A stretch of 22,770 bases of DNA. Origin: a virus. The stretch is from positions 1-22,770 of the IMG/VR virus record IMGVR_UViG_3300027760_000086; one strand, written 5' to 3'. Under the pieces are notes generated by a model. That model made no database searches. It was not told the DNA's origin and worked only from the letters and a program-made list of their open reading frames with translations. Shown one piece after another: positions 2,497 to 11,900 of this stretch (its first letter is position 1; each line of letters opens with the position of its first letter). Position numbers and translations under genes: made by a program.

Positions 2497-3213
2497 ATGA
2501 CTTTACTAATAGAACGATATCAATATACCAAATTATCCAGAGATGACAGCACAGGCAAGCGTTTATACGCTTGCCCAGACGGAACCAAAGTTCCCAGCGT
2601 TACCACTGTACTAGATAAAACCAAACCAGAAGAAGCCAAACAAGCACTACTCAATTGGCGACGTAGTGTAGGTGAAGCCAAGGCTCAACAGATCACTACT
2701 GAAGCAGCCAATCGTGGAACTCGTATGCACACTTTCCTTGAACGTTATGTCAAGGGCGAAGGCATTAAAGACACGGTTTCTAATCCTTATGCACAACAAA
2801 GTTTGGTAATGGCCAAAAAGGTCATTGAGAAAGGCTTTGGACATATTACAGAAATATGGGGTAGCGAAGTGCCTTTGTACTATCCTGAATTGTATGCAGG
2901 TACTACCGATTGTGTGGGCCTACATCAGGGTGAAGAAAGTATATTGGACTTCAAACAGACTAATAAGCCAAAGAAAATAGAATGGGTTGACGATTACTTT
3001 CTTCAACTCACTGCCTATGCTCTAGCACATAATCAAGTACATGGCACCAACATACGTAAAGGTGTTATCATGATGTGTGTAAAGCCACCAGAGATTGCAC
3101 CAGGTCAATGGGGCGAGCCCGAGTATCAAGAGTTTCGACTGTTACCAGAACATTTTGATTATTGGACTGATCGTTGGTTCAATAGACTAGAAGAATACTA
3201 TTCGAACATCTGA
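2497..3213 (+). CDS. PD-(D/E)XK nuclease, RecB/Cas4-like exonuclease
   Basis: At 238 residues the protein has the size of single-domain phage nucleases of the PD-(D/E)XK superfamily. Visible motifs run in the family order. VPSVTTVL comes near residue 31. RGTRMHTFLE follows, with H78 and E82. Then come D138 (GTTDCVG) and D151-F-K153 in ILDFKQT, the D...(D/E)xK metal site. Q170 and Y174 in QLTAY form the RecB-family QxxxY motif. Such enzymes cut or resect DNA using magnesium; in a phage this suits DNA recombination, end processing or host-DNA breakdown. Which of these applies cannot be read here. There is no Shine-Dalgarno sequence. The ATG at 2497 coincides with the predicted RNA start, and no other in-frame start lies before the VPSVTTVL motif, so a leaderless message is likely. 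Its neighbours are virion genes, so it is an early gene inside a late region. Confidence 0.85.
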   Translation: MTLLIERYQYTKLSRDDSTGKRLYACPDGTKVPSVTTVLDKTKPEEAKQALLNWRRSVGEAKAQQITTEAANRGTRMHTFLERYVKGEGIKDTVSNPYAQQSLVMAKKVIEKGFGHITEIWGSEVPLYYPELYAGTTDCVGLHQGEESILDFKQTNKPKKIEWVDDYFLQLTAYALAHNQVHGTNIRKGVIMMCVKPPEIAPGQWGEPEYQEFRLLPEHFDYWTDRWFNRLEEYYSNI

Positions 3214-3219
3214 TAAATA
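3212..3219 (+). promoter_or_regulatory. T4-late-like promoter octamer GATAAATA
   Basis: The octamer is identical to the one at 1163 and overlaps the stop of the nuclease gene (TGA 3211-3213). It lies 20 bases before the spike gene ATG. RNA would start near 3225, leaving a very short leader that still includes AAGGGG (3226-3231). Confidence 0.6.
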
Positions 3220-3239
3220 TCCTACAAGGGGATAATTAT
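3213..3239 (+). promoter_or_regulatory. Hairpin covering the spike gene ribosome binding site in read-through RNA
   Basis: ATAA (3213-3216) pairs with TTAT (3236-3239) and TATCC (3218-3222) with GGATA, read as G3230/G3231 to A3234, with one A-A mismatch between them and a short loop. The stem holds part of the AAGGGG site and ends at the ATG. The 5' arm is the late promoter itself, so only RNA arriving from upstream can form it. T4 genes e, soc and 49 are known to use this principle. Confidence 0.5.
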
Positions 3240-4865
3240 ATGGCCGTAGTACAAATTTCCAGAATACAGGTCCGTCGTGGAAGAGAAAATACTGAAACAG
3301 GTATACCACAATTAGCCAGTGGGGAAATGGCCTGGGCCATAGATACTCAACAATTATACATTGGTAACGGAGCAATTAGCGAAGGAGCTCCGGCGGTTGG
3401 AAATACTAGAATATTAACAGGTGCAGATCTTATTGGCGAACGTAATATTTTAAATATTGCTGATTACGTTTATAAGAAGGATCTTACTTTACCGCCTAGA
3501 ACAGTTCAAGATAGGCTAGACGAAAGAGTAAATTTTTCTAGTTTCAATGACACTCGTCCTAGCAAGAATAAAACTATGGCTGATAATATTCAAACAGCCA
3601 TTGATTACTTATATAAGTCTTCATTAGATAAACGAGCCATATTAGAGTTTGGGCCTGGAACATATGAGTTTGATACTACTATAAGAATTCACAGTTTTAC
3701 ACATATTGTGGGTTCTGGTTGTGGGAGGACTATTTTTAAGTATACAGGCACAGGAACAGCTTTTCAATTAGTTAACGATGACACAACTTCGTCTTCAACA
3801 CCAGCTAATACGGGCGACAATCAATGTAGATTTGTTACCCTAACCGGATTTACTTTAATTGTAGACAATACCAATACCACAGCAATGTCAATGAATTCTG
3901 TAAAGAACAGTAAATTTAGTGATTTAGAAATAAAAGGCAATTGGGTTAACAATATTCAAGGTCAGAATTTTTCTAATAGTAAGGCTTTTGATATGTTGTC
4001 TACTACAGAATTAATTACTTGCAATGATAACGAGTTTAACAATATTGATATTTCTAAATTTAGAGTTAGTATAAATGCACAAGGGGATATTGAGTCGAAT
4101 TTTATTCAAAATTGTAAATTTTCTACCAATGAAGTAGCAATAAATTTTGGACAAGGTGCTGATCTAACCTCCTATGGACAAATATATGGTCCCAGAAACA
4201 ATACTATTTCAAACAGTATTTTTAAAAATATTCAAAAACAAGGTATTAAAATATACAATGGATCAGGGAACGTCAGTAGTCAAAACAAATTCACATTAGT
4301 TGGTGATAATTTTGGTAATAGTTTCAATTCTGCTTATGGTGTAGTAGAATTTGATGTTCCGGGAAATCTAGTTAGTAATGACAACTCAGACAGACATACT
4401 GATTTATCCAATGATCTTTATCCTAGACCCTATATTGGCGAAGTAATTGCCAAGGCCAATTATACAAATCCCTTCACTAATGTAAAATTATTAGAGTATA
4501 CAACAACTCCTACTAATATTTTTAGACTACCTATTGCACAGACTTGCCATTTGGAAGTCGAGTATCTTTATCAAAGCACTAATAGAAGTAGAATAAGAAG
4601 AGGTAAATTATCAATTTTAGCAGATGCAAACAATCGTAACGACGATGATACGCCTTCAATAGAACTCATAGATGATTATGATTATCATGGAGTAGGCTCC
4701 GAAGATGATTACACAATAGAAGATACTCATTTAATTTTTACCGCTAGCTCTAGAACATATTTTGGAACAAGATATGTTGTAGAAGTGTTTTATCAATATA
4801 ACGGGGAAACCCTTAGCCAAGGCGATCAAGCCAAACTTACTTACACATATAAGATTTTGAGCTAA
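3240..4865 (+). CDS. Tail-spike or tail-fibre protein with beta-helix domain
   Basis: Residues 1-65 (ISRIQVRRGRENTETGIPQLASGEMAWAIDTQQLYIGNG) match the N-terminal fold seen in the major tropism determinant and many fibre proteins of marine T4-like phages; the marks are RxG, LxxGE and LYIGNG. From about residue 110 (NIQTAIDYLY, AILEFGPGTYEFDTTIRI, HIVGSGCGRTIFKY) the pattern is that of a pectate-lyase-like right-handed beta-helix. It has Asn-rich rungs such as NTISNSIFKNIQKQGIKIYNGSG up to about residue 375. The last 150 residues look like a compact beta domain. Such proteins form trimers on the baseplate or fibres and bind or cleave host surface polysaccharide; catalytic residues cannot be named by eye. 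The start has AAGGGG eight bases upstream and a late promoter. A more A/T-rich body than the neighbouring genes is consistent with exchange of the receptor-binding part. Confidence 0.8.
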   Translation: MAVVQISRIQVRRGRENTETGIPQLASGEMAWAIDTQQLYIGNGAISEGAPAVGNTRILTGADLIGERNILNIADYVYKKDLTLPPRTVQDRLDERVNFSSFNDTRPSKNKTMADNIQTAIDYLYKSSLDKRAILEFGPGTYEFDTTIRIHSFTHIVGSGCGRTIFKYTGTGTAFQLVNDDTTSSSTPANTGDNQCRFVTLTGFTLIVDNTNTTAMSMNSVKNSKFSDLEIKGNWVNNIQGQNFSNSKAFDMLSTTELITCNDNEFNNIDISKFRVSINAQGDIESNFIQNCKFSTNEVAINFGQGADLTSYGQIYGPRNNTISNSIFKNIQKQGIKIYNGSGNVSSQNKFTLVGDNFGNSFNSAYGVVEFDVPGNLVSNDNSDRHTDLSNDLYPRPYIGEVIAKANYTNPFTNVKLLEYTTTPTNIFRLPIAQTCHLEVEYLYQSTNRSRIRRGKLSILADANNRNDDDTPSIELIDDYDYHGVGSEDDYTIEDTHLIFTASSRTYFGTRYVVEVFYQYNGETLSQGDQAKLTYTYKILS

Positions 4866-4920: not shown

Positions 4921-7254
4921 ATGAATAAAATTACAGTCAAGAAACGAAACGGGGTCAGTGTTCCTTTAGATTTAAGCAAATGGCAGACACAAATTGCCAA
5001 AGTATGCAGTGGTGTAGCTGATGTTAGTCAAAGTATGATAGAGATCAAAGCACAGCCGCATTTTTACGATGGTATTACCACTAAGGAAATTGATGAAATT
5101 ACCTTACGTGCTATCGTTGATTTGATTGATATTGAAAGTAATCCAGATACGGGCAATACTAACTATCAATATGTGGCGGGGAAGCAACGTCTCAGTATGC
5201 TACGCAAAGATGTATACGGCAGCTATGATGTTCCTAGGCTCTATGATATAGTTAAACGCAATGTAGCAATAGGCCTATATACGCCTGAACTACTAAAATG
5301 GTATACTGAGGCAGATTGGAATACTATTGATTCCTTTGTTCGACATGAACGTGATGAGGAATACGGTTATGCTGCTATTGAACAGCTAATTGAAAAATAT
5401 CTTGTGCGTAATCGTAGTACTAAAGAAATTTATGAAACACCACAAGTTCGTTATATTATTGCGGCAGCAACTATCTTTCATAAGGAAGAGCCTTTGAGTG
5501 CTAGAATGCGTTATATTAGGGAGTATTACAATGCAGCCAGTGATGGGTTATTTACTTTGGCAACTCCAGTATTGGCTGGTCTCGGAACCCCTACTAAGCA
5601 GTTTAGTAGTTGCGTTCTCATACGCAGTGATGACGATTTAGACAGCATCTTTGCCTCAGGCGAAATGATGGCTAAATATGCTAGCAAACGTGCTGGCATT
5701 GGATTAGAGATTGGGAGACTACGTCCATTAGGTAGTCCAATTAGGGGAGGCGAGATCATGCATACTGGCATGATTCCGTTCTTAAAGAAATGGTTTGGGG
5801 ATCTTAGATCCTGTTCACAAGGAGGGATTAGAAATGCTTCAGCGACTGTGTTCTATCCGATCTGGCATCACCAATTTGATGACCTTATTGTGCTCAAAAA
5901 TAACCAAGGAACAGAAGAAACCCGAGTCAGACATATGGACTATGGTGTCGTACTCTCAGCATTCTTCTGGCGTAGGTTTAAGAACAAAGAAAATATTACG
6001 TTCTTCGACCCAAACCAAGTACCGGACCTCTACGAAGCCTTCTACTCCAATACAGAAAAGTTCGAAGAGCTCTATGTAAAATACGAAAATCAAGCAGGTC
6101 TTCGTAAAAAAGTTATTAGTGCTGAAGAAGTATTCAAAAGTGGCATATTAAAAGAACGCACAGATACAGGACGTATCTACTTGGTGTTCATTGATAACGT
6201 AATGAAGCAGGGCCCATTTGATCCTGACTATCATACAATTTACCAGAGTAATCTTTGTTGTGAAATTCTACTTCCTACTCGCCCTTTTAAGCGTTTGGAT
6301 GACAGCGATGGCCGTATCGCTCTTTGTACCTTGGGATCGATTAACTGGGGTGCGTTCAGAAATCCTGAGGATATGCGCCGTGCTTGTCGCATTCTCCAGC
6401 GCAGCCTATGCAACATCCTTGATTATCAGGACTTCCTCAGTATTCAGTCTAAACTAAGCAATGACGAAATCCAACCATTAGGCATTGGAGTAACTAACTT
6501 GGCCTATTGGCATGCCAAGCGCGGCTATAAGTATGGTGATAAGGATGCCTTACAAGATGTTAAAAGTTGGATGGAGCATCAAGCCTACTACTTAACTCAA
6601 GCCACTGTGGAGTTGGCCAAAGAACGTGGCCCATGTAAGGACAGTCATAAGACAAGATATGGACAAGGCATTTTTCCTTGGGAACTCAGAGCCAGTGCTG
6701 TAAATGAATTAGCTGAGTTTACACCAGAACTTGATTGGGAAATCTTACGTGCTAATATGAAACAGTACGGTGTACGCAATGCCACATTGATGGCTATTGC
6801 TCCGGTGGAGTCCAGTAGTGTGGTCATTAACAGTACTAATGGTATTGAAATGCCCATGAGCCTAATCAGTGTGAAGGAAAGTAAAGCAGGCAGTTTCATT
6901 CAAGTTGTTCCAGAGTATCATAGACTTAAAAATCGTTATCAACTTATGTGGGAACAACGAGATTGCGTTGGCTATTTGAAAACAGCAGCAGTATTGGCTG
7001 CCTATGTGGATCAAAGCATCAGTACCAATACATTCTATAGTCCCAAGCATTTTGCAGATCGTAAAGTGCCTAGCACATTAATTGCTAAGAACCTAATGCA
7101 AGCACACATTTGGGGATTGAAGACACTGTATTACAGTTTGATAGATAAGCAGGGTAGTAAAATGCCCGAACCCACTCCCGAAGTACACTACAACGGGTTT
7201 GACAATCACAGAGAATTAATCGAGGACGAGGACTGCGAATCCTGTAAATTATGA
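4921..7254 (+). CDS. nrdA: Class Ia ribonucleoside-diphosphate reductase, alpha subunit
   Basis: The enzyme reduces ribonucleoside diphosphates to deoxy forms, feeding phage DNA synthesis. At 777 residues it is close to E. coli NrdA. Residues 3-95 form an ATP-cone allosteric domain (VKKRNG ... YQYVAGKQRL). Catalytic residues sit at a constant offset from the E. coli numbering: C231 and C469 (redox pair), N444, C446 (thiyl radical) and E448 in SNLCCE, and Y737-Y738 of the radical path in KTLYYS. The C-terminal tail ends DCESCKL, with C772 and C775 as the re-reducing pair; the spacing is CxxC, where E. coli has four residues between its cysteines. The ATG at 4921 is the first start after an in-frame stop at 4885. 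No good ribosome binding site is seen. The stop overlaps nrdB. With nrdB and a glutaredoxin it forms a complete class I RNR module. Confidence 0.97.
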   Translation: MNKITVKKRNGVSVPLDLSKWQTQIAKVCSGVADVSQSMIEIKAQPHFYDGITTKEIDEITLRAIVDLIDIESNPDTGNTNYQYVAGKQRLSMLRKDVYGSYDVPRLYDIVKRNVAIGLYTPELLKWYTEADWNTIDSFVRHERDEEYGYAAIEQLIEKYLVRNRSTKEIYETPQVRYIIAAATIFHKEEPLSARMRYIREYYNAASDGLFTLATPVLAGLGTPTKQFSSCVLIRSDDDLDSIFASGEMMAKYASKRAGIGLEIGRLRPLGSPIRGGEIMHTGMIPFLKKWFGDLRSCSQGGIRNASATVFYPIWHHQFDDLIVLKNNQGTEETRVRHMDYGVVLSAFFWRRFKNKENITFFDPNQVPDLYEAFYSNTEKFEELYVKYENQAGLRKKVISAEEVFKSGILKERTDTGRIYLVFIDNVMKQGPFDPDYHTIYQSNLCCEILLPTRPFKRLDDSDGRIALCTLGSINWGAFRNPEDMRRACRILQRSLCNILDYQDFLSIQSKLSNDEIQPLGIGVTNLAYWHAKRGYKYGDKDALQDVKSWMEHQAYYLTQATVELAKERGPCKDSHKTRYGQGIFPWELRASAVNELAEFTPELDWEILRANMKQYGVRNATLMAIAPVESSSVVINSTNGIEMPMSLISVKESKAGSFIQVVPEYHRLKNRYQLMWEQRDCVGYLKTAAVLAAYVDQSISTNTFYSPKHFADRKVPSTLIAKNLMQAHIWGLKTLYYSLIDKQGSKMPEPTPEVHYNGFDNHRELIEDEDCESCKL

Positions 7255-8351
7255 GTAAAGAACAATATAACCTAACTACTAAGACAGACTATTTAAATCG
7301 TAAAATGTTCTTGGATCCAGCTGGACCAGTAACCATACAACGTTTCGAAGAAGTAAAATATAAAAAGATTGTAGACTTTGAACAGACAGCACGTGGTTTC
7401 TTTTGGGTTCCAGAAGAAATCAGTTTGACCAAAGATGCCAGCGATTTCAAAGATGCCAGTGACAGTGTAAAACATATCTTTACCAGCAATTTGCTACGTC
7501 AAACAGCATTGGATAGTATACAAGGACGTGGTCCAGCACAAGTGTTCACGCCGTGTGTAAGTTTACCTGAAATGGAAGCATTGATGTATAATTGGAGTTT
7601 CTTTGAAACTAATATACACAGTCGTAGCTATAGCCACATTATTCGTAATATCTATAATGTACCTAAAGATGTGTTTAATACTATCCATGATACCAAAGAG
7701 ATAGTAGAAATGGCGTCTAGTGTGGGTAACTATTATGATCAATTGCACATAATTAATTGTCATAAAGAGCTTGGCGAGGCAATCAGTGAAAAGGTACACG
7801 TTAGATCTATTTGGCTTGCTCTTAATGCCAGTTATGCCTTAGAAGCATTTAGATTTATGGTGTCATTTGCCACAAGCCTAGCCATGGTAGAAAATAAAAT
7901 CTTTATTGGCAATGGCAATATTATTAGTCTTATCCTACAAGATGAACTATTACACAAAGGTTGGACTGCTTGGTTAATCAATCAAGTAGTAAAAGAAGAT
8001 GCAAGATTTGCTCAAGCAAAACAAGATTGTGAACAGGAAGTGTATGGTATGTACATGGATGTAATCCGTGAGGAAAAAGCCTGGGCAGACTATTTGTTTA
8101 TGAAAGGTCCAGTAATTGGATTGAACGCCAACATTCTAAAAGATTTTGTGGATTATACAGCAGCCGCAGCCTTAAAGGACATTGGCCTAAAGTACATGAG
8201 TCCCGCACCCAAGACTACTCCTATTCCTTGGTTCAATAAACATAGTGATACTAGCAAAAAGCAGACAGCTTTGCAGGAAAATGAATCGACTAATTATGTT
8301 ATAGGAATTATGGGCGACAGTATTGACTATGATGAGCTGCCCATGTTATAA
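7251..8351 (+). CDS. nrdB: Class Ia ribonucleoside-diphosphate reductase, beta subunit
   Basis: The beta subunit carries the di-iron centre and tyrosyl radical that start catalysis in NrdA. At 366 residues it is of normal length. Recognisable parts are FFWVPEE (Trp of the radical path), D88 in LDSIQGRGP, E119 and H123 flanking the radical tyrosine Y127 in ETNIHSRSYSHII, ALEAFRF (second-half Glu ligand) and QDELLH (Glu and His ligands). The tail has NYVIG, whose Tyr corresponds to E. coli Y356, and ends DYDELPML for binding to NrdA. One thing is unusual: the first Glu and His ligands are separated by three residues (ETNIH), where E. coli and most relatives have two (ETIH). The D88-E119 distance equals that of E. 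coli, so the extra Asn lies between the ligands. The start overlaps the nrdA stop (ATGA), so translation is coupled. Confidence 0.96.
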   Translation: MSKEQYNLTTKTDYLNRKMFLDPAGPVTIQRFEEVKYKKIVDFEQTARGFFWVPEEISLTKDASDFKDASDSVKHIFTSNLLRQTALDSIQGRGPAQVFTPCVSLPEMEALMYNWSFFETNIHSRSYSHIIRNIYNVPKDVFNTIHDTKEIVEMASSVGNYYDQLHIINCHKELGEAISEKVHVRSIWLALNASYALEAFRFMVSFATSLAMVENKIFIGNGNIISLILQDELLHKGWTAWLINQVVKEDARFAQAKQDCEQEVYGMYMDVIREEKAWADYLFMKGPVIGLNANILKDFVDYTAAAALKDIGLKYMSPAPKTTPIPWFNKHSDTSKKQTALQENESTNYVIGIMGDSIDYDELPML

Positions 8352-8369: not shown

Positions 8370-8612
8370 ATGCTTACAGTATATACAAAATATGACTGTC
8401 CATTTTGTGACAGAGCCAAAGCCCTATTGGAAAGTAAAGGCGTACCTTACAAAACAATCAATGTACAAGATGATCCCACATCTAAAGAATTTCTAATGGA
8501 TCAAGGCCTGCGTAGTGTGCCACAGATTTTTGATGGCACTACCTTATTGCCTGGCGGGTTTCAAGGATTGGATAGTAAGCCAGCAGAGTTTTTCGAACAA
8601 TATAAAGGATAA
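8370..8612 (+). CDS. grx: Glutaredoxin
   Basis: This 80-residue, single-domain glutaredoxin has the fold order expected: beta strand LTVYTKYD, active site C10-P-F-C13, helix, then SVPQIF with the cis-proline P51 and the PGGFQGL glutathione-binding turn at 61-67. It would pass electrons from glutathione to the C-terminal cysteine pair of NrdA, so its place directly after nrdAB fits. The active site is CPFC, where the E. coli and T4 proteins have Tyr or Val at that position. Translation starts at ATG 8370 with a strong AAAAGGAG site five bases upstream. A predicted promoter inside the end of nrdB may give it extra transcription. Confidence 0.95.
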   Translation: MLTVYTKYDCPFCDRAKALLESKGVPYKTINVQDDPTSKEFLMDQGLRSVPQIFDGTTLLPGGFQGLDSKPAEFFEQYKG

Positions 8613-8614
8613 AA

Positions 8615-8905
8615 ATGTTAGTTGAAAATAAGTTTAAAAACAATGATATTATCAGTTTCAAAGTAAGTAGCGGGGAAGAGATCCTCGGTCGTTATGTACG
8701 TGAGGATGATGCTAATTTTTATATTACCAAGCCCAGTGTGTTAATGATGAGTCAGCAGGGTATGGGCATGGTGCCATACATGATGACAGTGAGACCAGAA
8801 GAAGAGTATGCCATTGCTAGAACAGCAGTTATCACTTTTGCTCGCACAGATGATGATATTGGCAAGCAATACCTAAGCAAAACCAGTGGGATTCAATTGA
8901 CCTAA
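8615..8905 (+). CDS. Small Sm-like (Hfq/LSm-fold) candidate protein
   Basis: The product has 96 residues and begins two bases after the glutaredoxin stop with AAAGGA at 8606-8611. Residues 11-45 (DIISFKVSSGEEILGRYVREDDANFYITKPSVLMM) resemble the Sm1 signature: a strand, SGEEILG with G20 and G25, a bent strand ending in acidic residues, then a beta strand. Residues 65-78 (YAIARTAVITFART) could be the last two strands. A structure of an Sm-like protein of putative cyanophage origin has been published, so such proteins are known in this phage group. Sm/LSm rings bind RNA in bacteria and archaea, but RNA binding by the phage version is not established as far as I know. Met-rich residues 44-57 are odd. 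The call is by eye, and another small beta-barrel is possible. Confidence 0.55.
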   Translation: MLVENKFKNNDIISFKVSSGEEILGRYVREDDANFYITKPSVLMMSQQGMGMVPYMMTVRPEEEYAIARTAVITFARTDDDIGKQYLSKTSGIQLT

Positions 8906-8918
8906 GCTTAGTTAATAA

Positions 8919-8986
8919 CCAAGCCGTTCTTAATAAATAGTTTTATGGGCGGTTTGGAGTCAGTCTCCAAGCAAATCGCTGGAGAC
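8919..8986 (+). promoter_or_regulatory. Three mutually exclusive hairpins in the giant fibre gene leader
   Basis: Hairpin A pairs 8919-8926 with 8950-8957 (8 bp, one G-U). Hairpin B pairs 8952-8959 with 8965-8972 (8 bp, one G-U, loop TCAGT). Hairpin C pairs GTCTCCA 8963-8969 with TGGAGAC 8980-8986 (7 perfect bp) and hides the GGAG ribosome binding site at 8981-8984. A excludes B, and B excludes C. The late promoter octamer lies in the loop of A, so late RNA lacks the 5' arm of A. Confidence 0.6.
8932..8939 (+). promoter_or_regulatory. T4-late-like promoter octamer AATAAATA
   Basis: Seven of eight bases match TATAAATA. RNA would start near 8945, leaving a leader of about 45 bases, the longest of the late genes here and the one with the hairpin set. 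Confidence 0.6.
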
Positions 8987-8990
8987 AAGA

Positions 8991-11900
8991 ATGGCAAAAA
9001 AAATACAGCTACGAAGAGATACGGCAGCAAATTGGAGTAGAGTTAATCCTAAACTAGCTCAAGGTGAAATCGGCGTCGACATAACCAATAAGAACTTTAA
9101 AATTGGTGACGGGATCAATCTATGGAATCAATTAACCTACGCTGTAACTTCTAGTAAATTATCCAACCTGTTAGGAACTACTTTTGTTTCTACAGGTACA
9201 GATCAGTACCCAACATACACAATATTTTATAATAATGGTTCTAACACTGTTAACATAAGTCCTGCACTGTTTGAAATTCAGAACGGTGTAAATGTTAGAG
9301 TTTTATCTGCCACAGAAAGTACGGATAGCACCACAGGCGCCTTAGTAGTTACAGGTGGAGCAGGAGTAGGCGGCGATCTTAATGTAGCTGGAGATATTAC
9401 AGCTAATAGTATTAGCCTTGACCAAGCATTAAGTACAAATTTAGTTGGTAATGTTACTGGCAATGTCACTGGCAATTTAACAGGTGCTATCTATTCAGTA
9501 AATGGCACTAGAATTTTAAACAATGGCACCGATGGTACAAATGCCAGTTTTAACGGTCATGTAAACGGCACTATTACCAGCACTGGTCAAAGTACATTTA
9601 CTAGAGCTGACATCAGCAGTGGATATATTGATAATACAATTATTGGTAGTATCACACCTGCATCAATTATTGGCACAACAATTAGAGCTAATACTGGATT
9701 TGTTGGCGATTTGTATGCCAACAACGGCTCTTCTAAAATATTAGAAAACGGTACAGATGGTACTAATGCTTCTTTTACCGGTAAACTAATTGGTGACATT
9801 TACGCTGCGGATGGTGTAACAAAAATATTAGAAAACGGCACAGATGGAACCGATGCCGTGTTTACTGGTACAGTGAATACTACCACAGGAGTTACAGGCA
9901 GGCTTATTGGCGATGTCTATGCTGCCGACGGTGTAAACAAAATATTAGAAAATGGTAGCGATGGCACTAATGCTGTGTTCACTGGAAAATTAATCGGCGA
10001 TATCTATTCTGCTGATGGTGTAACAAAAATATTAGAAAACGGCACAAATGGCACAAATGCTTCTTTCAATGGATCATTGAGTGGCAATGTTACAGGTAAT
10101 GTTGCAGGAGACCTAACTGGTGATGTTTATGCCAGCAATGGCACAACTAAAGTATTAGAAAATGGCAATGGTACTACTGTTCCTGCTGCTTTTACTGGTA
10201 ACATAATCGGCGATATCTATGCTGCTGATGGTGTAACAAAAGTATTAGAAAACGGCACAGATGGATCGAATGCTTCTTTCAATGGATCACTGAGTGGCAA
10301 TGTTACCGGTAATGTCGCGGGTAACTTGACTGGCGATGTTTATGCCAGCAATGGCACAAGTAAAATATTAGATAATGGCACAGATGGCACTAATGCCGTA
10401 TTCACTGGCAATGTTAATAGCAGTGGCAAAAGCACATTTAATGAAGTAGCAATTTATTCAACCACAGGTACTCCAGGTACTATAGATAATACAGAGATAG
10501 GTAAGACCACACCATCTCCTATTGCTGGGACTACAATTACTGGCACTGTGATCACTGCTACAGATAAGTTTGTGGGAGTATTTCAAGGTAACAGCTCAGG
10601 TAGTTTCACAGGTGATTTAAAGGGTGACATTATTGCCAATAATGAAGTTAAGGTATTGGATAACGGCACAGACGGATTTAATGCAACCTTTACTGGATCA
10701 GTTACTGGAAATATAAACAGTACTGGGCCCAGTAGTTTCAGCAATGTTACCATTTCAGGTGGTACTATTAATACTACGCCGATTGGTGCTACTACTCCAA
10801 GTAGTGTAAAGGGTACTACTATCACAGCTACTAGTGGATTTAGTGGTGCTTTAACTGGTAATGTCACAGGTAATGTCACAGGCAATGTCACAGGTAATGT
10901 CACAGGCAATGTCACAGGTAATGTCACAGGTAATGTCACAGGCAATGTCACCGGAGACATAACCAGCACTGGAACAAGTAGCTTTAGCAATATCGGTGTA
11001 ACTGGTGGAAATATCGATAGCACCCCGATAGGTAATACTACTCCTACCACTGTAAAAGGTACTACAATCACAGCTACTACTGGATTTATTGGAGACTTAA
11101 CTGGCAATGTTACCGGTAACCTGACAGGTAATGTCACTGGCAATGTCACTGGCAACTTAACTGGTAATGTTACCGGAGACATAAGCAGCACTGGAACAAG
11201 TAGCTTTAGCAATATTGGTGTAACCGGTGGAAATATCGATAGCACCCCAATTGGAGCAACAACCCCAACCACAGTAAAAGGCACTACTATTACTGCAACT
11301 ACTGGGTTCAGTGGTGATCTAACTGGAAATGTGACCAGTACTGGTCCCAGTAGTTTTAGTAATATAACCGTAACAGGTGGTAGCATTAATACTACAACAA
11401 TAGGTGCTACCAACCCAACTACTGTAAAAGGTACTACAATTACAGCTACAACTGGGTTCGTTGGCAACTTAACTGGTAATGTTACAGGTGACTTAACAGG
11501 TAATGTCACAGGTAATGTCACAGGTAATGTCACAGGTAACTTAACTGGCAATGTAACTGGCAATGTAACCAGTACAGGAACAAGTAGTTTTAGCGATATT
11601 GATATTACTGGTGGTAAGATTAATAATACCCCAATAGGTGCCACTACGCCAACTACAGTAAAGGGTACTACAATCACAGCTACTACTGGATTTATTGGAG
11701 ACCTAACTGGCAACGTAACTAGCACTGGATCAAGTAGTTTTACTAATGTTGCAGTTACAGGCGGCAGTATTAATAGTACTCCAATAGGGGCTACAACACC
11801 ATCCACAGTTGACGGCACAACGATCAAAGCTAATGAACAAATTATTAACAATGCTGGCCAACTTAAATTTAAAGAACTTGCCACAAATGGTGTAACATCA

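Follow-up and report, generated by a model that had tools for sequence, protein, structure and literature searches.

The fibre gene and its leader

The window, which is the whole 22,770-base virus record IMGVR_UViG_3300027760_000086, carries a run of nrdA, nrdB, glutaredoxin and a 96-aa ORF, followed after a gap of 85 bases by a fibre gene of 2938 residues (Table 1). The two nrd genes are recognised by their Pfam matches, Ribonuc_red_lgC (2.8e-110) and Ribonuc_red_sm (2.3e-41); by analogy with T4 biology, they are presumably an early or middle operon. The N-terminus of the fibre protein matches Mtd_N (3.9e-14).

Table 1. Positions of the genes and leader elements around the start of the fibre gene
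Feature	Positions	Strand	Remarks
nrdA and nrdB, upstream operon	4921-8351 (nrdA 4921-7254; nrdB 7251-8351)	+	
Glutaredoxin gene	8370-8612	+	Pfam Glutaredoxin, 5.6e-17
96-aa ORF, last gene 5' of the leader	8615-8905	+	phrog_527, 1.6e-11
A 5' arm (segment 1)	8919-8929	+	folds; pairing across 16 leaders
Stem A, core	CCAAGCCG 8919-8926 / CGGTTTGG 8950-8957	+	
Late-promoter-like octamer, AATAAATA	8932-8939	+	in the loop of A
Putative late transcription start	8945, within a few nt	+	analogy with the T4 late TATA box
A 3' arm (segment 2)	8947-8957	+	folds
Helix D	5' arm 8949-8953, 3' arm 8975-8979	+	pairing across leaders
Stem B	GTTTGGAG 8952-8959 / CTCCAAGC 8965-8972	+	8 pairs, one G.U
B 5' arm, of the putative anti-masking stem	8952-8959	+	overlaps segment 2
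B 3' arm (segment 3)	8965-8972	+	
Stem C	GTCTCCA 8963-8969 / TGGAGAC 8980-8986	+	7 pairs
C 5' arm	8963-8969	+	overlaps segment 3
C 3' arm (segment 4)	8980-8986	+	holds the GGAG ribosome site, 8981-8984
Tail fibre gene, 2938 residues	8991-17807	+	PHROG tail fiber protein phrog_5342, 3.8e-174

The original prediction, made from the letters of the window, placed three overlapping stems in this gap, put a late octamer in the loop of stem A and had stem C hide the ribosome site of the fibre gene. Checking the sequence confirms all three stems at their places. Stem A is longer than first noted, since 11 pairs form in folding (8919-8929/8947-8957). The GGAG of the fibre gene lies within the 3' arm of C and is predicted to be masked there. 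An additional helix, D, can stack on B and extend it. The 72-base leader (8919-8990) folds at -30.4 kcal/mol, with a z score of -6.3; none of 200 dinucleotide shuffles folds as well. A search of positions 8600-9200 against Rfam 15 gives no match up to E = 5. Hairpin A was considered as a terminator; this is ruled out by the absence of a T run after it.

The loop of A does contain ATAAATA (8933-8939), which by its motif resembles a late promoter. ATAAATA is found four times in the window, compared with 9.9 copies expected from shuffles. All four copies are on the + strand, 27-58 nt upstream of a listed gene start, and the - strand of the window has none; the zones 7-65 nt ahead of listed starts cover 3.9% of the + strand. 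T4 late transcription begins roughly one helical turn downstream of the TATA box (available text of PMC2988020). By analogy, the octamer may be a late promoter at which RNA starts a similar distance downstream.

Distribution and pairing of the leader

The same leader is found upstream of a homologous fibre gene in 29 further virus contigs. Relatives were sought with the 96-aa ORF, the fibre N-terminus and DNA patterns; 24 of these contigs were found with the 96-aa ORF and five otherwise (L257, L261/L289, L293, L295 and L302). Identical leaders were collapsed, which leaves 16 distinct leaders including that of the window; counts are therefore per leader, not per contig. The distance from octamer to ATG is 55-58 nt in all 25 leaders measured.

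The searches also delimit the range of the leader. A model of the leader gives one strong match in each of 13 virus records, plus three weak matches, and none in T4 or Melnitz. Five distant contigs (L304-L308) among the 33 relatives of the fibre N-terminus do not have the leader. Scanning genome contigs for the 96-aa ORF gave no relative. A distant homologue of this ORF occurs in five phage records; in the two inspected, Melnitz and DLP_6, the gene that follows it is annotated as MazG-like or hypothetical, not as a fibre gene. One DNA-pattern scan of viral contigs returned 92 stretches, mostly a coding motif with a 14-nt gap, and these were discarded. A second scan of viral contigs gave five stretches, one of them new (the L126 contig), and a fourth gave 27 stretches with two new leaders (L257 and L261). 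In the third scan, among the 119 matches listed, those that had arms and passed a filter for GAG shortly before ATG were known contigs only.

A gp55-type late sigma gene (phrog_234, 6.8e-25) is present in one of 13 records searched other than the window, the 400-kb relative; the other 12 records are 15-110 kb long. The leader and fibre arrangement of L127 lies in a virus record of 399,796 bases, which has a gp55-like sigma gene at 77327-77677.

In seven close relatives the leader differs by 0-1%; third codon positions of the 96-aa ORF differ by 9-39% and fibre codons 11-50 at 0-65% of bases. More distant leaders differ by 14-26%. The near-identity of the close leaders could be due in part to exchange together with the fibre head. 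L011 (L028) keeps the leader and fibre codons 1-10 (7% difference) and differs at 65% in codons 11-50, a figure to which an insertion in codons 20-40 adds; this pattern suggests exchange of the fibre gene with the leader as a fixed head.

The genes directly upstream vary. Two ORFs, one of 206 aa and one PAAR-like, separate the fibre gene from the 96-aa ORF family in L257 and L293/L295. In L261 the fibre gene comes after a collagen-like ORF and one of 97 aa; the PAAR and collagen names come from inspecting the sequences. Because of these other neighbours, the rationale of read-through from the nrd genes is not universal, and the leader seems to travel with the fibre gene.

An ATG at 8945, on the putative late start, could in principle open a small leaderless ORF. 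This reading was rejected because the ATG is not conserved: among the leaders inspected it is missing in L013, L257, L261, L293 and L302, its frame reaches a stop after five codons in L125 and L129, and in L127 and L128 it is in frame with the fibre gene.

The structural alignment of the 16 leaders was set by hand because MAFFT shifted L126 and L131. Standard pairs fill 169 of 176 cells in A (96%), 122 of 127 in B (96%) and 101 of 112 in C (90%). Helix D is paired in 73 of 80 cells, with broken pairs in some leaders. Pair type changes on both sides at four pairs in A and at two pairs each in B, C and D; in B these are changes from G-C to A-U, at 8952/8972 in L013 and at 8957/8967 in L293. In the plain MAFFT alignment, pairing is 96.0% (A), 94.5% (B) and 86.6% (C), with two-sided changes, by that tool's definition, at three, two and two pairs; 22, 45 and 108 of 500 column shuffles, respectively, reach this pairing. 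Sliding the 3' partner by 1-3 columns lowers pairing to 28-61%. The original prediction had relied on complementary arms persisting in related phages; the arms of all three stems are kept, with some paired changes.

A tree-aware null was made by redistributing the substitutions on a tree in 2000 runs; a weakness of its p values is that the same leaders also served to build the tree. When pairing and two-sided changes are taken jointly, p is 0.006 (A), 0.017 (B), 0.076 (C) and 0.0005 (all three). Pairing on its own gives 0.02, 0.05, 0.14 and 0.005 in the same order. Two-sided changes by themselves give 0.07, 0.29, 0.46 and 0.01, so that no single stem is significant by this measure. Taken together, these tests give fair support to the set of three stems, moderate support to A and B, and weak support to C alone.

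Predicted folding of read-through and late RNA

All folds come from one energy model and are for 37 C unless stated. Late RNA was modelled from six bases after the octamer, either with the leader only or with 9 or 30 nt of coding sequence added (+9 nt, +30 nt).

In read-through RNA, A is predicted at 1.00 in 15 of the 16 leaders (leader only). C reaches at least 0.75 in 14 leaders and at least 0.99 in 12; it is at 0.75-0.81 in L128 and L293, 0.40 in L131 and 0.00 in L013, and goes down to 0.49 in L293 with +30 nt. In the window's own read-through RNA, A and C are predicted at about 1 and B at 0, as had been claimed.

In late RNA with the leader only, B is predicted at 0.95 or more in 12 of 16 leaders, at 0.60 in L011, at 0.18 in the window and at 0.00 in L001 and L131; it is the majority state in 13 of the 16. 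With +9 nt, B is at 0.5 or more in nine leaders and below 0.5 in seven, and the same counts apply with +30 nt; L130 is at 0.50 with +9 nt. L127 and L129 have B at 0.99-1.00 whichever of the three lengths is folded. Folds with the leader only agree in most leaders with the claim that late RNA forms B and so blocks C, and disagree with it at equilibrium for the window, whose late RNA favours C. There C is at 0.82 and B at 0.18 with the leader only; C is at 0.97 with +9 nt, 0.93 with +30 nt and 0.998 when the RNA is folded to 9060. At 20 and 10 C it is at 0.99-1.00, stronger than at 37 C. The two states of the window are near balance (C -15.7 vs B -14.6 kcal/mol). Equal dominance of C in both RNAs had been named as a result that would speak against the switch; C is not equal in the two RNAs, although in the window it dominates both at equilibrium.

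The order of folding may matter here. When the window's late RNA is folded at equilibrium as it grows, B is at 0.99-1.00 for 3' ends from 8972 to 8985 and at 0.61 at 8986, and C is at 0.83 at 8990. To pass from B to C along the direct path, the RNA is predicted to face a barrier of 15.3 kcal/mol. The growing read-through RNA is predicted to form A first, then C. Since late RNA of the window favours C, an active fibre gene needs B to be trapped during transcription or merely a lower opening cost; in this sequence, expression would depend on the order of folding, or on a mask that opens at less cost without being absent. The original chain of A, B and C is right in form, and these models partly support its interpretation as a switch.

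At 37 C and with the leader only, 15 of the 16 show a lower predicted cost of freeing positions 8980-8985 in late RNA than in read-through RNA; with +9 or +30 nt, all 16 do. L128 shows no difference with the leader only, nor at 10 C. In 13 of 16 leaders the effect exceeds that in 95% of their own 200 shuffles; L001, L131 and L293 fall short. The effect of the start site on opening of the window's ribosome site is matched by 8 of 1000 shuffled leaders and by 3 of 200.

Some lineages are predicted to use other pairs. Late RNA of L131 has D in place of B. In the predicted read-through fold of L013 an upstream segment pairs straight with the ribosome-site region, beside B: in L013:3285-3378, CUGUUCU of the old A arm pairs with AGAACAG next to the ribosome site. 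L014-L016 share this leader. The mask of the L013 lineage seems nearer to the T4 type, coexisting with B, and in the models both L013 and L131 would keep the logic of the switch with other pairs. L001 is predicted to be masked in late and read-through RNA alike. L001:2574-2655 is a natural single-base variant in which one pair is broken in both A and B; the variant may be a sequencing error.

A candidate switch read from the transcription start

The leader is real and conserved; its sequence, conservation, pairing and predicted energies are observations. It is probably an RNA switch read from the start site. We put the probability at roughly 0.65 that it is explained as a four-segment switch which reads which promoter made the transcript. 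In RNA arriving from the nrdAB-grx side, segment 1 would pair with segment 2 to give stem A. With segment 2 taken by A, segment 3 would be free to pair with segment 4 as C, and the fibre gene would be silent. Late RNA would begin inside the loop of A; since the 5' arm of A lies upstream of this start, segment 1 would be present in read-through RNA only. In late RNA, segment 2 would pair with segment 3 (B, often with D) upon emerging, and GGAG would then be unpaired or open at less cost. The parts of this scheme that are inferred, with T4 biology as the guide, are the start of late RNA, read-through early in infection, access of ribosomes to the site and the biological effect.

Masking hairpins are described for T4 e, soc, 49, I-TevI and segB and for Aeh1 mobE, which are late genes on transcripts that also carry early genes (available text of PMC3014915 and PMC2988022). 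The late promoters of T4 e and I-TevI are placed such that the 5' part is missing from late RNA, which is translated (PMC3014915, PMC2988022), and masking of the ribosome site of T4 e cuts translation 100-fold (PMC3014915). By analogy with T4 e, masking of the fibre ribosome site would block translation. The fibre leader is like the e and soc type in that the longer RNA hides the ribosome site, here by C as predicted in 14 of 16 leaders, and in that a late promoter, here identified by motif, lies inside a leader hairpin. In the T4 type, the masking helix is incomplete in late RNA owing to where that RNA starts; in the window, by contrast, both arms of C (8963-8986) are downstream of the putative start, and C has to be outcompeted by B, a separate anti-masking stem that A keeps from forming in the long RNA. 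The fibre leader may work like the e, soc and I-TevI hairpins, differing from them by this anti-masking stem.

In the four-segment leaders of attenuators and translational riboswitches, such as the trp attenuator, pairings 1:2 and 3:4 exclude 2:3. The fibre leader has the same mutually exclusive 1:2, 2:3 and 3:4 pairings, as judged from the shared arms and the partition functions. Unlike those leaders, the switch as proposed calls for neither a ligand nor a stalled ribosome; its input would be whether or not segment 1 is transcribed. Unlike an attenuator, it has no intrinsic terminator on the + strand between 5000 and 11000, where the four terminator-like sites are all on the - strand. In pyrC-type switching, the start position decides whether a ribosome-site hairpin forms. 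In pyrC, however, the start shifts by a few bases at one promoter and one hairpin is involved, whereas the fibre leader would use two promoters and three stems.

The order of co-transcriptional folding sets access to the ribosome site in hok and in H. pylori aapA3, where transient hairpins prevent early toxin translation; the metastable hairpins of aapA3 show paired changes among strains (available text of PMC6733600). In the fibre leader, in contrast, the early-forming hairpin would permit translation, and the start of the transcript would be the switch. A chained or anti-masking late phage leader was not found in the open-licence literature searched, including the available text of PMC3014915, PMC2988022, PMC2988020, PMC2864571 and PMC6733600; subscription papers lay mostly outside this search, and absence is unproven. 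According to the available text of a T4 review, no riboswitch system has been functionally characterised from T4, and genomes of related phages are a possible source (PMC3014915). The fibre leader, which is conserved, is a candidate RNA switch that would work without protein or ligand. It suggests a way to place an 8.8-kb late gene right behind an early operon without wasting ribosomes early, and natural variants with a graded predicted balance make the idea testable. The chances are about even that such leaders form a ligand-free class of switches in T4-type phages, with promoter identity as the sole input, folding order locking the on state and lineages rewired. Rewiring within the class would consist of B being swapped for D, or of direct masking by an upstream segment.

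Other roles for the stems are possible. The leader could be a quantitative brake that does not flip: C would mask both RNAs, A would strengthen the off state, abundant late transcripts would suffice, and B would be a weak by-product in the window phage. C at 0.82-0.97 in late RNA of the window is consistent with a brake, as is the masking of both RNAs in L001. A brake is nevertheless unlikely, given that B is predicted to prevail in late RNA in 13 of 16 cases with the leader only (nine with +9 or +30 nt), that pairs of B change on both sides in L013 and L293, and that B is kept though it only opposes C. Alternatively, B/D could protect the late mRNA or bind a phage protein, with A and C secondary. 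B/D is located at the putative 5' end of late RNA, and the growing late RNA of the window folds B. This role is improbable, however, because it leaves two things unexplained: segment 1 stays in pairing register without being part of late RNA, and segment 3 pairs with the ribosome site in 14 of 16 folds of read-through RNA.

Two further explanations concern the DNA. The leader and the first ten fibre codons could be homology for swaps of the fibre gene; this agrees with L011, where codons 1-10 are kept and codons 11-50 diverge, and with the different upstream genes of L257, L261 and L293. Such a joint requires identity, not pairing, yet L013 and L131 alter the sequence and keep an alternative fold; as the explanation of the leader it is quite improbable, and it may act in addition to the switch. 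The arms of A, with the octamer between them, could also be a DNA dyad, i.e. an operator for a dimeric regulator of the promoter, and T4 I-TevI does autorepress at an operator over its own late promoter (available text of PMC2988022). A dyad predicts no bias towards G.U, yet A has 43 non-Watson-Crick cells and, read on the + strand, G.U accounts for 36 of these (15 of them from one pair, 8927/8949); of the seven others, five are A.C. This bias points to RNA of the + strand and not to a DNA dyad, which would also leave B and C unexplained; an operator is very improbable.

The four-segment switch proposed for the fibre gene is accompanied in the window by a simpler leader. Directly behind a PD-(D/E)XK exonuclease gene, at 3240, lies a fibre-like gene of 541 aa. 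It gives weak Mtd_N and pectate-lyase-like matches and has a simple hairpin of the T4 e type (3210-3242), in which ATAAATATCC (3213-3222) pairs with GGATAATTAT (3230-3239); this joins the octamer bases and those just after them to the ribosome-site region. RNA made late, from about 3225, would be without the 5' arm, and the predicted opening cost is 7.8 kcal/mol in the longer RNA vs 1.3 in the late RNA. Two other genes, at 1194 and 17844, show little change in opening cost (1.8 vs 1.7 and 1.0 vs 0.6). Given the simple hairpin at 3240 and the chained leader at the fibre gene, the same phage seems to use both forms. Seven distinct versions of the 541-aa leader, from relatives and the window at pattern-matched loci, all keep the octamer and AAGGGG. 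Two of them have the window's arm, four have a CCC arm just after the octamer and one has neither; their fold energies range from -1.9 to -8.3.
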